Below, piece after piece: positions 3,115-22,628 of a DNA stretch of 64,000 nucleotides. Each line of letters opens with the position of its first letter. The stretch's first letter is position 1. The DNA is from Halovenus salina. GTDB lineage: Archaea; Halobacteriota; Halobacteria; Halobacteriales; Haloarculaceae. The stretch covers positions 1,178,001-1,242,000 of the forward strand of contig NZ_CP112972.1 of NCBI RefSeq assembly GCF_026410925.1, read 5' to 3'. The notes below the pieces were generated by a model. That model did no database searches, was not told the DNA's origin, and saw only the letters and a list, made by a program, of their open reading frames with translations. Made by a program: the position numbers and the translations under genes.

Positions 3115-3214
3115 ACATACATATTCGGACGGGCGGTATTTGTTCGTTCTGATACCCGAACAAGAGCCAGACGTCGACCAGCATCGCTAAGGGCGCGTAG
3201 CGACGAACATCAAT

Positions 3215-18179: not shown

Positions 18180-18474
18180 TCATCTCCAACGTGGCTCCCG
18201 GAACAGTAGTGCGGAATCGCCCTTGCCGAAGATAGCGAAGCGGTCGCCCTCAGAAGCGTGCTTGTCGCCGCGATGCAGTTGCGTCACGTCCCCGGCCATC
18301 ACCGCGTCTCTGATCCGTTCGGCCGGGAAGAGTTCGGTCCAGCGGTCGCCCCACTGATTGTGCCAGTACTCTTTGATGCTGGGACGAGCAGCGAAGTAGC
18401 GCTCTTGTTGGGCCTTCGGAAGCGTGGCGATCCACATCTCTGTCGGACCGACCCGGGCTGACTGACCCTCATCT
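18180..18474 (-). pseudogene. Remnant of a second COG0523/CobW GTPase (C-terminal domain)
   Basis: The minus-strand frame (open from 18632, stop at 18180) contains a stretch that parallels the C-terminal domain of the intact GTPase at 19795-21048: GQSARVGPTEMWIATLPKAQ here against [20 protein letters not shown] there, then YWHNQWGDRWTEL against [13 protein letters not shown]. There is no start codon or GTPase domain; the part of the frame before ~18474 merely overlaps the end of the FAD-protein gene. After GDRWTEL the similarity fades, so the tail is probably shifted or decayed. Confidence 0.6.
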
Positions 18475-19701
18475 TCACGGAGAGAGACTCGCCGTTTGGT
18501 TGGGAGTTCTCTCTGGCTGAGAGTTGAGTATCCGTTCGGCTGCTCGGCGTGCACCCGGGATATTACCTGCAAACGCCCCAAGGCTTCCTTCTGCGAGTCG
18601 TCCAGTGACGAAGACGCGGGAACACTCGCCATCCCGTTTTCTCCAAGCGAGCGTCGAGTCCTCGAGTACCGGCATCCCTCGGTACCCTCGTTCCAACGCG
18701 AGTTCCGAGGCGATCTGGTCTACTAACGGCCGGCCGTACACTGACTCAAATCCCGTCGCCAGCACCACGCGGTCTGCTTGGTATCCGACCCCTTGCTCCC
18801 CAGTGAGAAGTACCCCGTCTTGTGTCTCGACCGCTGCAGTAAGCTCTTCGTGATGGTGCTCGAGATTGTCGACCCTGTCGAGTTCACGCCGTAGGTACGG
18901 CGGTATTGTGCCTTCGTTACGCGCCTTCCGGAGTCGGTCGTATCGTGCCTGTGATCCAGGCGGCAGTGAATGGAGTTGCTTGGTGATATATTGCCAGTTG
19001 AGCCACCGCGGCTCTGCCTCGCGTAGCGCACTTTGCAGGGGCGACCGCGAGCAGAGCACGACCGATGTAGCCTGGCCTGCCACTGAGGTTGCAAACTGCG
19101 TTGCGGTTGTTCCGCCACCGATGACCCAGACACGTTCACCGTCTCTGATGCGCTGCGGTGGGGCTGTCGATTTGTCCCAGACATGGCTGACGCGATCTGT
19201 CTCCTCTGCCCAAGTGGGACAGTGGAACCGTTCGTTTGGACCGACGGCGAGCACGACGTTTGCGGCCCGGATCGAACCACCGGTCGTCTCGACGCGAAGC
19301 GGTCCATCGCCAGAGATTCCGGTGACTGTCGCTTTATCCACTAACTTTCGGAGATCGAACCGCTTGACGATGTACTCTGCGTAATCTATGAAGAGATCCA
19401 GCGTCGGGCGGGGCTGGCTGTTCTGTGTCGGAACCAGTTCGTCCCCGCGGTCGTTCGCCTCGGCAAACCGTTCGAGTCCGAATGGTGAGGGACCAATGTG
19501 CTGGACGTAGTTCGATCGCAACGTCTCCATACCGCAGGCTCGTGCTTTCTGACGAAACGATGCGAGCAGTTCACCCTCGCTGTCCACGACCATGAGGTCA
19601 TCCGGGGTGATGCCGGATTCTTTCAGTTCACGGGCGAGATACGTCCCGTGGATCCCGCCGCCGACGATCAGCCACTCGACTCTCGAGTCCGGAGCGCTCA
19701 T
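18475..19701 (-). CDS. FAD/NAD(P)-binding oxidoreductase (N-hydroxylase-like)
   Basis: 408 residues. FAD site GGGIHGTYLA near residue 13, NAD(P) site VIGGGTTATQFA near residue 173, and the LATGFES motif near 325 that resembles the ATGY motif of lysine/ornithine N-monooxygenases and the COG4529-type FAD proteins. Divergently transcribed from the COG0523 GTPase with only 93 bases between them and a shared palindrome. This suggests joint control, probably by metal availability. Substrate unknown; a role in making a metal chelator or cofactor is possible but only inferred. A CobW remnant lies directly behind it. Confidence 0.8.
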   Translation of the reverse strand: MSAPDSRVEWLIVGGGIHGTYLARELKESGITPDDLMVVDSEGELLASFRQKARACGMETLRSNYVQHIGPSPFGLERFAEANDRGDELVPTQNSQPRPTLDLFIDYAEYIVKRFDLRKLVDKATVTGISGDGPLRVETTGGSIRAANVVLAVGPNERFHCPTWAEETDRVSHVWDKSTAPPQRIRDGERVWVIGGGTTATQFATSVAGQATSVVLCSRSPLQSALREAEPRWLNWQYITKQLHSLPPGSQARYDRLRKARNEGTIPPYLRRELDRVDNLEHHHEELTAAVETQDGVLLTGEQGVGYQADRVVLATGFESVYGRPLVDQIASELALERGYRGMPVLEDSTLAWRKRDGECSRVFVTGRLAEGSLGAFAGNIPGARRAAERILNSQPERTPNQTASLSP

Positions 19702-19738
19702 GTCTCAGCATACCAGCCAGGAGTATAATAAATTTACA

Positions 19739-19763
19739 TCTAATAATAATAACTCTTATTAGA
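19739..19763. promoter_or_regulatory. Candidate metal-regulator operator (palindrome)
   Basis: TCTAATAA - 9 bases - TTATTAGA, perfect 8-base arms, in the divergent promoter between the FAD-protein gene and the COG0523 operon. A TATA-like element (GTATATTT) follows at 19771-19778. Read on the minus strand it begins TCTAATAAGAGTTA, almost the same as a site at 22132-22145. No known repressor consensus is claimed. Confidence 0.5.
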
Positions 19764-19794
19764 TAGTGTTGTATATTTGCTACTGATGAATACG

Positions 19795-21048
19795 ATGACA
19801 ATCCCAGTGACAGTGTTGTCCGGAACACTCGGTGCGGGGAAGACGACAGTGCTCAATCACATTCTGGCGGAAAGCGGAGACCGTGATATCGCGGTACTCG
19901 TCAACGATATGGGTGAGGTCAACGTCGATGCGGAGCTCGTTGCCGAGTCCTCGGATATCTCTGAAGAGGAGGAGGAACTAATCGAACTATCGAACGGCTG
20001 TATCTGTTGTGAGTTGCGGGGTGACCTGTTGGACGCGATCGGGAGGCTCACGAGTGAACGTGAGTTCGACGCACTCGTGGTAGAGTCGACTGGCGTTGCC
20101 GAGCCACTCCCGGTCGCTCAGACGCTGACCATGGGCTTTAACCAGTCCGATCTCGATCCGACCGAGTTCTACGAGGAGACGAGCATCGAGCCACTGGCGA
20201 ACTGCCACCTCGATACGACAGTGACGGTCGTGGACGCCCACCAGTTTGAGGAGGCGATGAACGCCGACGAAATGCTGAACGACGATGGAACAGACAAGCA
20301 TCTTGGCGATTTACTCGTCGAACAGGTCGAGTTCTGTGATGTTCTCGTCCTTAACAAGTGTGACCTTGTCCCGAACGAGGAACTCAAAGAAATAGAGGAG
20401 ACCCTCGAACGCCTCCAGCCACGCGCAGAGATTATGAGAACCGAATACGGCGCTGTCGCTCCCGAGAAAATCGTCAACACTGGACGGTTCGATTTTGAGG
20501 AGGCGAGCCAGTCCGCAGGCTGGATTCAAGAACTCAAAGAGCCACACGCGTCCGCCGAAGAGGAACACGGTGTGAGCTCACTCGTCTTTCACTCACGACG
20601 GCCCTTTCACCCTGAACGATTTGCAGATCTACTCGATGCATTGCCAGAGACGATCGTCCGGTCGAAGGGTCACTTCTGGCTCGCCGGGCGTGAGGAGATT
20701 GCGTTGTCACTCAACGTCGCCGGCCAGTCCGTTCGCGTCGGTCCCGGCGGTCGGTGGATTGCAACACTTCCCGAGGCGGAACAACAAAAACAGTTCGAAG
20801 CAAACCCCGTTCTCGAGGAACTGTGGGACGAACAGTGGGGAGACCGCGGCACACAGTTGGTCATCATCGGTCGTGAAATGAACCACGACGCCGTTCGTGA
20901 ACAGCTCGAAGCCTGTCTGCTCACCGCCGAGGAAATGGAGGAGGCGTGGGACAGCTACGAGGATCAGTTCCCAACCTTTGAGTTCAACAATGAAGAGAGC
21001 GCCCCCGAGCAAGAAGATGGGGCTGAAGAACTCGGAATTGCAGACTAA
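19795..21048 (+). CDS. COG0523 (CobW-type) metallochaperone GTPase
   Basis: 417 residues from ATG 19795 ([18 protein letters not shown]); ATG 19786 three codons upstream is also possible. Visible are Walker A GTLGAGKT (residues 10-17), the metal-binding CxCC motif CICC (69-72), ESTGVAEP, and NKCD of the G4 loop. The CobW C-terminal domain includes [11 protein letters not shown] and a WIATLP block. COG0523 GTPases insert or deliver metals (Zn, Co, Ni); many bacterial ones are induced by zinc starvation. It is followed in an operon by a small HEAT protein and a zinc-site-deficient uS14 paralogue, which points to zinc. The acidic C-terminal tail is halophilic. Confidence 0.9.
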
Positions 21049-21050
21049 CA

Positions 21051-21308
21051 ATGTCAGTCGAGTTTCAGACTGCCATAAAAAAGAGTGTAGCACGAGAAAA
21101 CCGATCGAGCGCGGTCGACAGACTCGCCGCAAAGGACGAGCGCGCGAATCTGTCGGTGCTCGTCCAAGCAGGCGGGCTTGCTGGCGAGTTTCGTCGCCAG
21201 GCACTCAAAGGACTCATCAACTGTGGCGGTACCGAACAGTTGAAATCGCTCGCAGACGACCCGTCTGTCCCGAAATCGTTGCGTCGGCGAGCCGAGGAGG
21301 CAGTATGA
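21051..21308 (+). CDS. Small HEAT-repeat-like protein
   Basis: 85 residues, all helical: an N-terminal helix ([29 protein letters not shown]) then two short helical hairpins ([49 protein letters not shown]) like PBS-lyase/HEAT repeats. It begins 2 bases after the GTPase stop and overlaps the uS14 paralogue by 4 bases (ATGA), so the three are an operon. Possibly an adapter for the GTPase or a ribosome factor; function unknown. Confidence 0.8.
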
Positions 21309-21466
21309 GCGACGAAGAAAACACCGACGGACAAGACGAGCGAGAGCGACGAGTATGTCTCGATACTGGCCGCGAGCAGGGGCTGGTCGGCAAGTACGAC
21401 ATCTGGCTGTGCCGGCAGTCCTTCCGAGAGAAAGCCCGTGATATCGGGTTCAAAAAGCACGACTGA
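21305..21466 (+). CDS. uS14 ribosomal protein paralogue lacking two zinc-ligand cysteines
   Basis: 53 residues. After an acidic leader ([16 protein letters not shown]) it matches archaeal uS14: [17 protein letters not shown] then [14 protein letters not shown]. Normal archaeal uS14 binds zinc with two C-x2-C pairs; here the first pair reads C-L-D-T and the second C-R-Q-S, so one cysteine of each pair is lost. In bacteria such cysteine-depleted (C-minus) ribosomal protein copies replace zinc-binding copies under zinc starvation and sit next to COG0523 genes. Here it is the third gene of a COG0523 operon, overlapping the HEAT gene by 4 bases. The canonical rpsN should be elsewhere in the genome (spc operon). 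Confidence 0.85.
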
Positions 21467-21655: not shown

Positions 21656-22069
21656 TCACATATCGAGGCGACCCTGCATGCCGAGCCACCGGGCTCGGAG
21701 CCTCTGTTTGTCGAGGTCACCGAGTTCGTTTCTCATAATCTTGGAGCCGCTTCTCGAATTCGCTGCAAGGATACTAGCGTCGGTAGCTTTATCGACGAAG
21801 TTCATTGCAGGAGTGATACCGAAGAGTGCAACGTCGATGTCTCCACTCGCGAATGCCTTGACGACGCTGGACCCGGAGCTGAACCGCTCGACTGTAACAT
21901 CTGCCGCGACGCACTCGTAGTAGTTCTTCTGCGTCATCACGTAGTGTTGCATGTTTGGATAACTCGGGACGTACGCAACCGTGACAAAGTCGAGTGATTC
22001 CTCTCTTTGACCCAGACAGCCAGCAATTCCTGTGGCCTGGAGCAGCACCCGGCGCAAGATGTGGACCAT
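21656..22069 (-). pseudogene. Truncated ABC substrate-binding lipoprotein (NitT/TauT/THI5-like)
   Basis: The frame encodes a signal-like N-terminus MVHILRRVLLQATGIAGC (lipobox GIAGC), then the first ~90 residues of a periplasmic-type binding protein: FVTVAYVPSYPNMQHYVMTQKNYYE and VTVERFSSGSSVVKAFASGDIDVALFGITPAMNFVDKATDASILAANSRSG. Similarity stops about residue 110; intact members are ~330 residues. The tail (LGDLDKQRLRARWLG) does not fit, so the gene is broken and the rest deleted. It lies downstream of nikR on the same strand, so it could once have been a metal uptake component. Confidence 0.6.
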
Positions 22070-22131
22070 CAGTGTTAGTAAAGACAATAGTAACTGCAGT
22101 AATTTCTGCAATAAAAATGAAGTAATTAACT

Positions 22132-22199: not shown

Positions 22200-22628
22200 T
22201 CATTTCATATCGGCGAGCGGACCGAAGTCATCCACCGGCAGCACAGAGTAGTCGACGGTGAGCGTGTCCTTTGTCGCTCTGATCTTCCCGACAAACGTCG
22301 AGATCTCTTCGAGCGAGCCTTCCAACACAAACAGTTCCATGCAATGGTGGCCGCCAACATGGCTATGAAAGTTCGAAGCGACGATGCCCTCGTGTTCGTG
22401 GCGAAGATGCATCATTTTCTCTTCGACGCTTGTTGTTTCGTAATCGAAAACTACTGTGACGACGCCCATCAACTCTCGATCTTCGAGTTTTTTATCCTCG
22501 AACTCACCGAGGAGGGTCCGACCCGCCTCCCGAATTACTTCACTGCGACCAGTATAGCCGTGGTCGTCCGCAAACTGGTCGATTCGATTGAGCAACTCTT
22601 CTGGCATCGAGATACTAACGACGCTCAT
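22200..22628 (-). CDS. nikR: Nickel-responsive regulator NikR family
   Basis: 142 residues from ATG 22628. Ribbon-helix-helix DNA-binding domain at residues 1-45 ([35 protein letters not shown]), then an ACT-like metal domain. The Ni(II) ligands known from E. coli NikR are all present: His 77 (LRHEHE), His 88 and His 90 (FHSHVGG) and Cys 96 (HHCMELF). The protein is therefore likely nickel-responsive, or responds to a related divalent metal. The gene precedes the broken binding-protein gene. No intact nickel transporter is in the window. Confidence 0.92.

Follow-up and report, generated by a model that had tools for sequence, protein, structure and literature searches.

The analysed window, a stretch of 64,000 nucleotides from Halovenus salina, harbours an operon which encodes a COG0523/CobW-type GTPase, a small HEAT-like protein and a paralogue of the ribosomal protein uS14 with an incomplete set of zinc-binding cysteines. 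The combination is confirmed as real and recurrent; it goes beyond chance because the genome of H. salina also contains a diverged second triplet and the genes are linked repeatedly throughout the class. Islands of this type are in our judgement probably archaeal zinc-sparing modules. The operon and its upstream region comprise the following features:

18475–19701, minus strand: FAD/NAD(P)-binding flavoprotein, divergent from the operon (PF13454, PF07992, PF13738)
19738–19764, no strand assigned: perfect 9-bp inverted repeat with a 9-bp spacer, a weak candidate for an operator (judged by local shuffles)
19745–19759, plus strand: promoter element AATAATAACTCTTAT upstream of the operon (two matches in the genome, 0 with the reversed pattern as control)
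19786–21048, plus strand: COG0523/CobW GTPase with GCICC motif (PF02492, 168.5 bits; PF07683, 90.2 bits)
21051–21308, plus strand: HEAT-like helical protein of 85 residues (ORF, AlphaFold2 model, 14 aligned relatives)
21305–21466, plus strand: uS14 paralogue with CLDT and CRQS, each zinc-binding pair without its second cysteine (NF004424, PF00253)

The coupled layout given in the preliminary description of this DNA is borne out by a gap of 2 bases between the COG0523 and HEAT-like reading frames and a 4-base overlap (ATGA) between the latter and the uS14 gene. The COG0523 frame, with its stop codon at 21046–21048, contains in-frame ATG codons at 19795 and at 19786; the former had been taken as the start and is indeed in frame, but the latter is better supported by its agreement with the start of a copy on contig C2 (MDTMTIPV; see below). 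The identification as a COG0523 GTPase stands on the cobW and CobW_C scores listed above, and the membership features of the family (CobW domain, CobW_C domain and CxCC motif) are all present, the last as GCICC at residues 68–72, which is invariant in an alignment of the window protein with 12 relatives. The best NCBIfam model is that of ZigA (NF038288) with 430.4 bits, under the equivalog cut-off of 600, and the MRF equivalog (NF047431) scores 199.9 bits, under its cut-off of 375. Just behind the flavoprotein, an ORF on the minus strand (18180–18632) contains a segment of about 50 residues that is similar to the final part of COG0523 proteins (weak ZigA/MRF match), perhaps a gene remnant, and a similar stretch is found behind the flavoprotein of contig C2.

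The uS14 paralogue of 53 residues has lost one cysteine of each pair (C18-x2-T21 in CLDT and C36-x2-S39 in CRQS), as originally noticed, and the core motifs quoted at that time were found intact. The lost residues are zinc ligands of uS14. The protein exceeds the cut-offs of archaeal uS14 models (62.5 versus 54 bits for NF004424; 35.2 versus 27 bits for PF00253) and scores much lower against bacterial S14 models (17.6 and 13.8 bits); it is thus of archaeal type and not borrowed from a bacterial cysteine-minus S14.

Besides the window copy, the H. salina genome contains three uS14 matches. Those at C1:18024 and C1:3315435 are canonical, carry all four cysteines (ECQRC...CRQC) as had been predicted, and lie among ribosomal genes recognised by eye. 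The existence of two canonical copies was nevertheless rejected, since both are identical at 3156 of the 3156 bases compared and their spacing fits an overlap of about 31 kb between the ends of contig C1; judged from this 3156-base stretch, they most likely represent one gene at an unclosed contig overlap. The apparent overlap, an identical ribosomal segment, might also explain part of the listed contamination of 6.84%. The third match resides on contig C2 (188,763 bases) in a second COG0523–HEAT–uS14 triplet, diverged but intact and accompanied by the same divergent flavoprotein. The possibility that H. salina has no uS14 other than the window copy, named at the outset as the outcome that would speak against the proposal, is therefore rejected by the four-cysteine copy and by the second triplet. 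Between the two triplets, protein identities amount to 86% for COG0523 and 79% each for the HEAT-like protein and uS14. The corresponding dN/dS ratios (about 0.12 for COG0523, 0.33 for the HEAT-like protein and 0.28 for uS14, and 0.25 for the flavoprotein) are all below 1, as values without a significance test which in the two short genes derive from few differences and sites. A plasmid search for a close relative of the contig C2 triplet gave no match. Among five ribosomal families checked in the genome, uS14 alone is doubled; for eS27, eL37, eL42 and eS31 there was a single match per family.

Second uS14 copies were surveyed in 391 Halobacteria genomes including H. salina. A uS14 match was found in 385 of them, and at least 51 besides H. 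salina have two among the matches listed. From 49 of these 51 the second copy was fetched with its neighbourhood, G180 and G324 being left out as their best scores fall into the canonical range; together with the window and contig C2 copies, 51 copies were examined. The second cysteine of both pairs is missing in all 51 (46 recognised by pattern; five of the 49, missed by the pattern, read separately), and two cysteines are kept in 47 and one in 4. The four copies with a single cysteine disfavour the need for a disulfide or a two-cysteine metal site. Canonical uS14 of relatives, sampled non-randomly from the higher-scoring matches listed, has four cysteines in 20 of 20 cases. Across 10 aligned cysteine-minus copies the core is kept with 23 invariant positions, and the matches listed contain no internal stop codon. 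GLxGKYD is replaced by GLxG[AT]YD in five cysteine-minus copies (L062, L063, L064, L069 and L092), and L116 also has a threonine at the lysine position.

In a tree of 65 rows, cysteine-minus and canonical uS14 are split with support values of 100/98, and the split is kept at 98/92 with the four cysteine columns masked. A single origin of the cysteine-minus type would be compatible with this topology, which is based on few columns, has no fixed root and leaves five copies aside. Within the cysteine-minus branch, rows of different families are intermixed. Nine plasmid records have a uS14 match and eight of these are cysteine-minus; the match on a Natronorubrum bangense plasmid was rejected as such, being a canonical four-cysteine uS14 within a ribosomal operon. 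The Halorubrum ezzemoulense megaplasmid (L217) carries an unannotated cysteine-minus gene whose end is altered in the vicinity of an IS5 transposase gene. Horizontal movement of cysteine-minus uS14 thus appears likely. In a sample of 294 genomes from the phylum, the eight best uS14 matches listed (at least 94.7 bits) all belong to Halobacteria and the ninth scores 87.3 bits; among the matches listed, one genome outside Halobacteria (G612) has two.

Within 6.5 kb of the 51 copies, genes for HEAT-like proteins (36), COG0523 (35, including one partial match, L083, and one split match, L073), FAD flavoproteins matching that of the window (34) and Pyr_redox_3 flavoproteins (17) are most frequent, followed by C2H2 proteins and FeoB-like proteins (16 each), ABC-3 permeases (8) and NikR (5), the names of neighbour families being derived from Pfam scans of representatives. 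Sixteen copies have no COG0523 match within this distance, 7 of them none of the sought genes, and some of the contigs end nearby. Two major arrangements were distinguished. The triplets anticipated in other haloarchaea recur as a co-directional COG0523–HEAT–uS14 order in 17 of 51 copies (architecture A), including the window type, mostly with the divergent flavoprotein and with named carriers mainly from the Natrialbaceae. Architecture B (15 of 51) has a Pyr_redox_3 flavoprotein directly 5' of uS14 and a divergent COG0523; the next gene downstream is FeoB-like in 13 of the 15, and an ABC-3 (Znu-type) permease lies within 6.5 kb in 7. Named representatives come from Halorubrum, Haloferax, Haloprofundus, Halomicrobium, Halostagnicola and Halocatena, among others. 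Three further copies have a divergent COG0523 and lack the Pyr_redox_3 flavoprotein, and in some genomes uS14 stands apart from HEAT and COG0523 matches. A third context is seen in L048, L056, L066, L068 and L080 (family f3), where cysteine-minus uS14 occurs without COG0523 near a common ORF of 987 residues (UvrA-like by eye) and other common genes.

Viewed from COG0523, a uS14 match is present in the fetched DNA of 27 of 80 named loci, partly from the same organisms as the class sample, and all 27 are cysteine-minus; the DNA fetched for the other 53 gave none, some of their contigs being short. COG0523 is thus often found without cysteine-minus uS14. Among 76 gene-called COG0523-family loci, for which genes were called by our own heuristic and a second COG0523 type was included, ZnuA (PF01297) occurs in 18, ABC-3 (PF00950) in 17 and NikR in 17, the latter mostly in loci with the second type. 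The ZnuA-type protein also matched manganese binding proteins, below the best zinc binding ones. The H. salina genome itself has two strong ABC-3 matches, each adjoining a ZnuA-like ORF and one also a DtxR-like ORF. The second COG0523 type (L042:2379-5187; L152–L167), often present as tandem pairs, is about 57 and 40% identical to the window protein and lies near NikR. Genes for MoCF-domain, tetrapyrrole methylase and NifU_N proteins are among its neighbours, as are znu-type genes in several loci; together they constitute a separate recurrent metal island. Downstream of the window operon, a NikR-like regulator (NikR_C, 78.5 bits) is encoded on the opposite strand (22200–22628), and three NikR-like genes are found within the 16 kb fetched around the contig C2 triplet (L042). 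Between the window operon and its NikR-like gene, a short minus-strand ORF (21656–22111) matches an NMT1/SsuA-type substrate-binding protein over profile positions 8–99 of 252 only and appears to be a shortened form related to the binding protein that adjoins NikR in other islands (L161).

The small protein between COG0523 and uS14, initially termed a HEAT protein, is present as an ORF, but that label found no Pfam match; the scan gave only UPF0147 with 16.5 bits, under the cut-off of 23.6. Its AlphaFold2 model (pLDDT 91) consists of six helices, and structure matches include alphaRep/HEAT-type chains. These are of a generic helical-repeat kind and none from the PDB reaches E ≤ 0.001, so that an assignment of function from the fold was dropped. 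The gene tracks COG0523 rather than uS14, as the COG0523–HEAT pair is divergent from the uS14 operon in architecture B. Because it comes after COG0523 in both architectures, its product may serve as an adaptor for the GTPase.

Common promoter elements connect the operon with its relatives. With at most one mismatch, AATAATAACTCTTAT has two matches in the 3.77-Mb genome, both 5' of the two triplets, and AATAATAACTNTTAT is likewise confined genome-wide to these two positions, which implies that the znu operons of H. salina are without that exact element. TAATAACT occurs in 26 of 52 COG0523-family promoters of relatives versus 4 of 178 AT-rich controls. The window promoter contains TAATAACT and has no GTT-N3-AAC next to the start. 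The latter dyad was found in promoters of COG0523 (16/52), ZnuA (2/9), a C2H2 micro-protein (6/15) and NMT1-type substrate-binding proteins (1/4) and in none of the 178 AT-rich controls; it was the best of 192 dyads (p = 9.6e-15; next dyad, 0.02) in a scan of the 30 bases immediately upstream of each called start, with control genes from the same loci. All promoter counts refer to heuristic gene starts after removal of near-duplicates and include the second COG0523 type. The p-values are optimistic because orthologues are not independent; the essential point is that the elements are common to unlike genes. A looser pattern, TTRNYAAC[AT][GC], is present in 6 of 8 ZnuA promoters versus 3 of 961 other genes. 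The start-adjacent TTAAYAACAGATG was discarded as a genome-wide regulon marker, since in G207 it gave two forward matches (at most one mismatch) versus one in the control; the motif as written is apparently too narrow. The perfect inverted repeat was rejected as a conserved operator; it is modestly unusual, 34 of 2000 local shuffles yielding one and the window holding 7, and is absent from the C2 promoter by eye. The C2H2 micro-protein, exemplified by L072:10089-10241 and its relatives, has 50 residues with two C2H2 fingers, and its family occurs in 26 of the 76 gene-called loci. It is a candidate for a zinc sensor.

A further link to zinc is provided by hisI. On plasmid pHGLR2 of Haloferax gibbonsii LR2-5, uS14, a FeoB-like gene, a DUF7124-like gene and hisI follow each other in one direction, with an annotated metal ABC transporter about 5 kb beyond hisI. 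Haloferax marisrubri and Haloprofundus marisrubri have the same hisI in their islands, and in Haladaptatus pallidirubidus it lies close to a more distant COG0523; two of these loci had been fetched twice, from two collections. None of the remaining loci searched yielded it. Both genomes checked (2/2) possess a second hisI elsewhere. PMC2770081 names HisI as one of the families with paralogues in Zur regulons of bacteria. As hisI was outside the original finding, it lends independent support to the zinc reading.

The sequences themselves show the loss of ligands, a canonical copy, gene linkage that recurs, dN/dS values under 1 and promoter elements common to relatives, and at this level the notion that the module works like a zinc-sparing ribosomal protein swap is well supported. 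We propose the following scenario. When zinc becomes scarce, repression by a presumably zinc-requiring repressor would be lifted and the COG0523 GTPase, its HEAT-like partner and cysteine-minus uS14 would be produced together. The uS14 copy, which has probably lost zinc binding along with its ligands, might then be taken into new 30S subunits in place of zinc-holding uS14, so that zinc would no longer be locked into ribosomes. COG0523, if it acts on zinc rather than on another metal, could hand the remaining zinc to its most important clients. The set is found in other haloarchaea beside genes for Znu-type uptake and for a FeoB-like transporter, and a few of them add a spare HisI; uptake would rise as well. 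The zinc-starvation reading offered originally is thereby sustained in its comparative part, namely by the four-cysteine copy, the recurrent triplets and the znu-type and hisI neighbours; its functional part, above all the induction at low zinc, is what we infer from these data.

Some observations do not fit this scenario easily. Most copies retain one cysteine of each pair, which a clean loss would not leave; COG0523 stays under the ZigA cut-off and is missing near 16 of 51 copies, as is uS14 from 53 of 80 COG0523 loci; and the window promoter has no GTT-N3-AAC at its start, nor does AATAATAACTNTTAT precede the organism's own znu operons. Moreover, in the data of PMC6305349 drawn on here, znuC of Halobacterium salinarum rises 18-fold on treatment of the cells with zinc and 38-fold with nickel, the former being the opposite of simple zinc repression. 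The rise with nickel, the NikR-like genes near some islands (5 of 51 within 6.5 kb, 17 of 76 COG0523-family loci), the NikR_C protein adjoining the window operon and the FeoB-type domains of neighbours would rather suit a metal-stress module for nickel, cobalt, manganese or iron, in which the uS14 copy resists mis-metallation instead of saving zinc. However, 46 of the 51 islands have no NikR match within 6.5 kb, the clearest metal assignment among the neighbours is given by ABC-3/ZnuA-type uptake and the hisI paralogue, and the ZnuA-type protein matched manganese binders less well than the best zinc ones. As the residues lost from uS14 are, in addition, just the zinc ligands, we regard a module for another metal as unlikely.

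An adaptation of the ribosome to alkalinity, salt or oxidants, by a different 30S subunit or by escape from cysteine oxidation, would agree with the many loci from organisms named Natr-, a group common in soda lakes, with the reduced oxidation sensitivity expected from cysteine loss and with the flavoproteins adjoining the uS14 copy. This explanation need not be separate from zinc sparing, as alkaline brines likewise contain little free zinc. Cysteine-minus uS14 is carried by Haloferax and Haloarcula species as well, and no known oxidative-stress gene was recognised among those recurrent neighbours that were identified, which makes a specialised ribosome of this kind quite improbable. A mycobacterial Mrf-hibernation system exists in which a COG0523 protein has a partner, and the uS14 copy might by analogy act off the ribosome, as a regulator or as a partner of COG0523 with the HEAT-like protein as adaptor. 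The match of COG0523 to the MRF model and the isofunction of rps14b, marked unclear in PMC8305020, could be quoted in its favour. The MRF cut-off is missed by a protein whose supposed partner has kept the core of uS14 and in some genomes stands apart from HEAT and COG0523 matches, and we consider an off-ribosome role very unlikely. Finally, a mere passenger on plasmids without a present role, as the plasmid records, the altered gene beside the IS5 transposase, the patchy distribution over the class and the mixing of families in the tree might suggest, is hardly conceivable given the dN/dS of about 0.28 between the two H. salina copies, the same cysteine loss in 51 of 51 and reading frames free of internal stops among the matches listed.

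Starting from zinc sparing as the preferred explanation, a more far-reaching and rather doubtful proposal may be put forward tentatively: independently of bacteria and with no part played by Zur, haloarchaea might have arrived at a zinc-sparing regulon which spreads horizontally and combines the uS14 swap, a spare HisI in some species and COG0523, znuABC and the two-finger C2H2 micro-protein under control of GTT-N3-AAC / TAATAACT, with the micro-protein or a NikR-like protein as zinc sensor. If true, zinc sparing by ribosomal protein exchange would have been reached separately by archaea, with partly the same neighbours as in bacteria (COG0523, Znu-type uptake, HisI), and would not just be a Zur-tied bacterial device. 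A function would be offered for the unexplained second uS14 of haloarchaea, archaeal ribosome heterogeneity would become testable in the cultured Haloferax gibbonsii LR2-5 and Natrialba magadii, and the promoter element would provide a handle on an archaeal zinc regulator.

The uS14 paralogy as such is already published: two distant paralogues, rps14a and rps14b, occur in about 20% of haloarchaeal genomes, e.g. in Natronomonas pharaonis, whose rps14b (NP_1768A) is marked as unclear (PMC8305020). The uS14 section of that report gives no cysteine pattern, gene neighbourhood or zinc reading for uS14; presumably rps14b corresponds to the cysteine-minus type. Among the papers listed by a literature search, mostly outside subscription journals, neither a tie of haloarchaeal uS14 to zinc nor expression data for the cysteine-minus gene came to light. 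In the relevant part of PMC7221443, znuABC is reported to go up at an early stage when Haloarcula hispanica is infected by a virus, and uS14 is unmentioned, and in that of PMC2770081 an archaeal link between COG0523 and zinc is predicted only via ZntR in Methanosarcina. Bacteria produce zinc-free ribosomal proteins under zinc shortage, and their Zur-regulated COG0523 genes cluster with znuABC (PMC2770081, PMC5912738). S14 is one of four proteins of the mycobacterial altRP operon described in PMC5912738, where the Zur regulon also includes zinc ABC transporters and chaperones. The haloarchaeal COG0523 resembles the zinc GTPases YciC/ZigA (PMC2770081) in its CobW and CobW_C domains, the GCxCC motif and the best NCBIfam match, and has znu-type and, in some species, hisI neighbours as in the bacterial Zur regulons covered by that source; unlike ZigA, the window protein remains under the equivalog cut-off and is paired with a HEAT-like gene. 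The uS14 copy shares with the Zur-regulated altRP proteins that it is a zinc-ligand-poor paralogue of a core ribosomal protein, coexists in H. salina with a zinc-holding primary form and is linked to COG0523 (35/51) or an ABC-3 permease (8/51). In contrast to them, it is a short uS14 of archaeal type and not a bacterial S14, it has lost the second cysteine of each pair while one is usually kept, and it is the only one of five families doubled in H. salina; we do not assign it to a Zur regulon. Since its uS14 is of archaeal type, the haloarchaeal module may best be viewed as an archaeal, independently built variant of the zinc-sparing swap.
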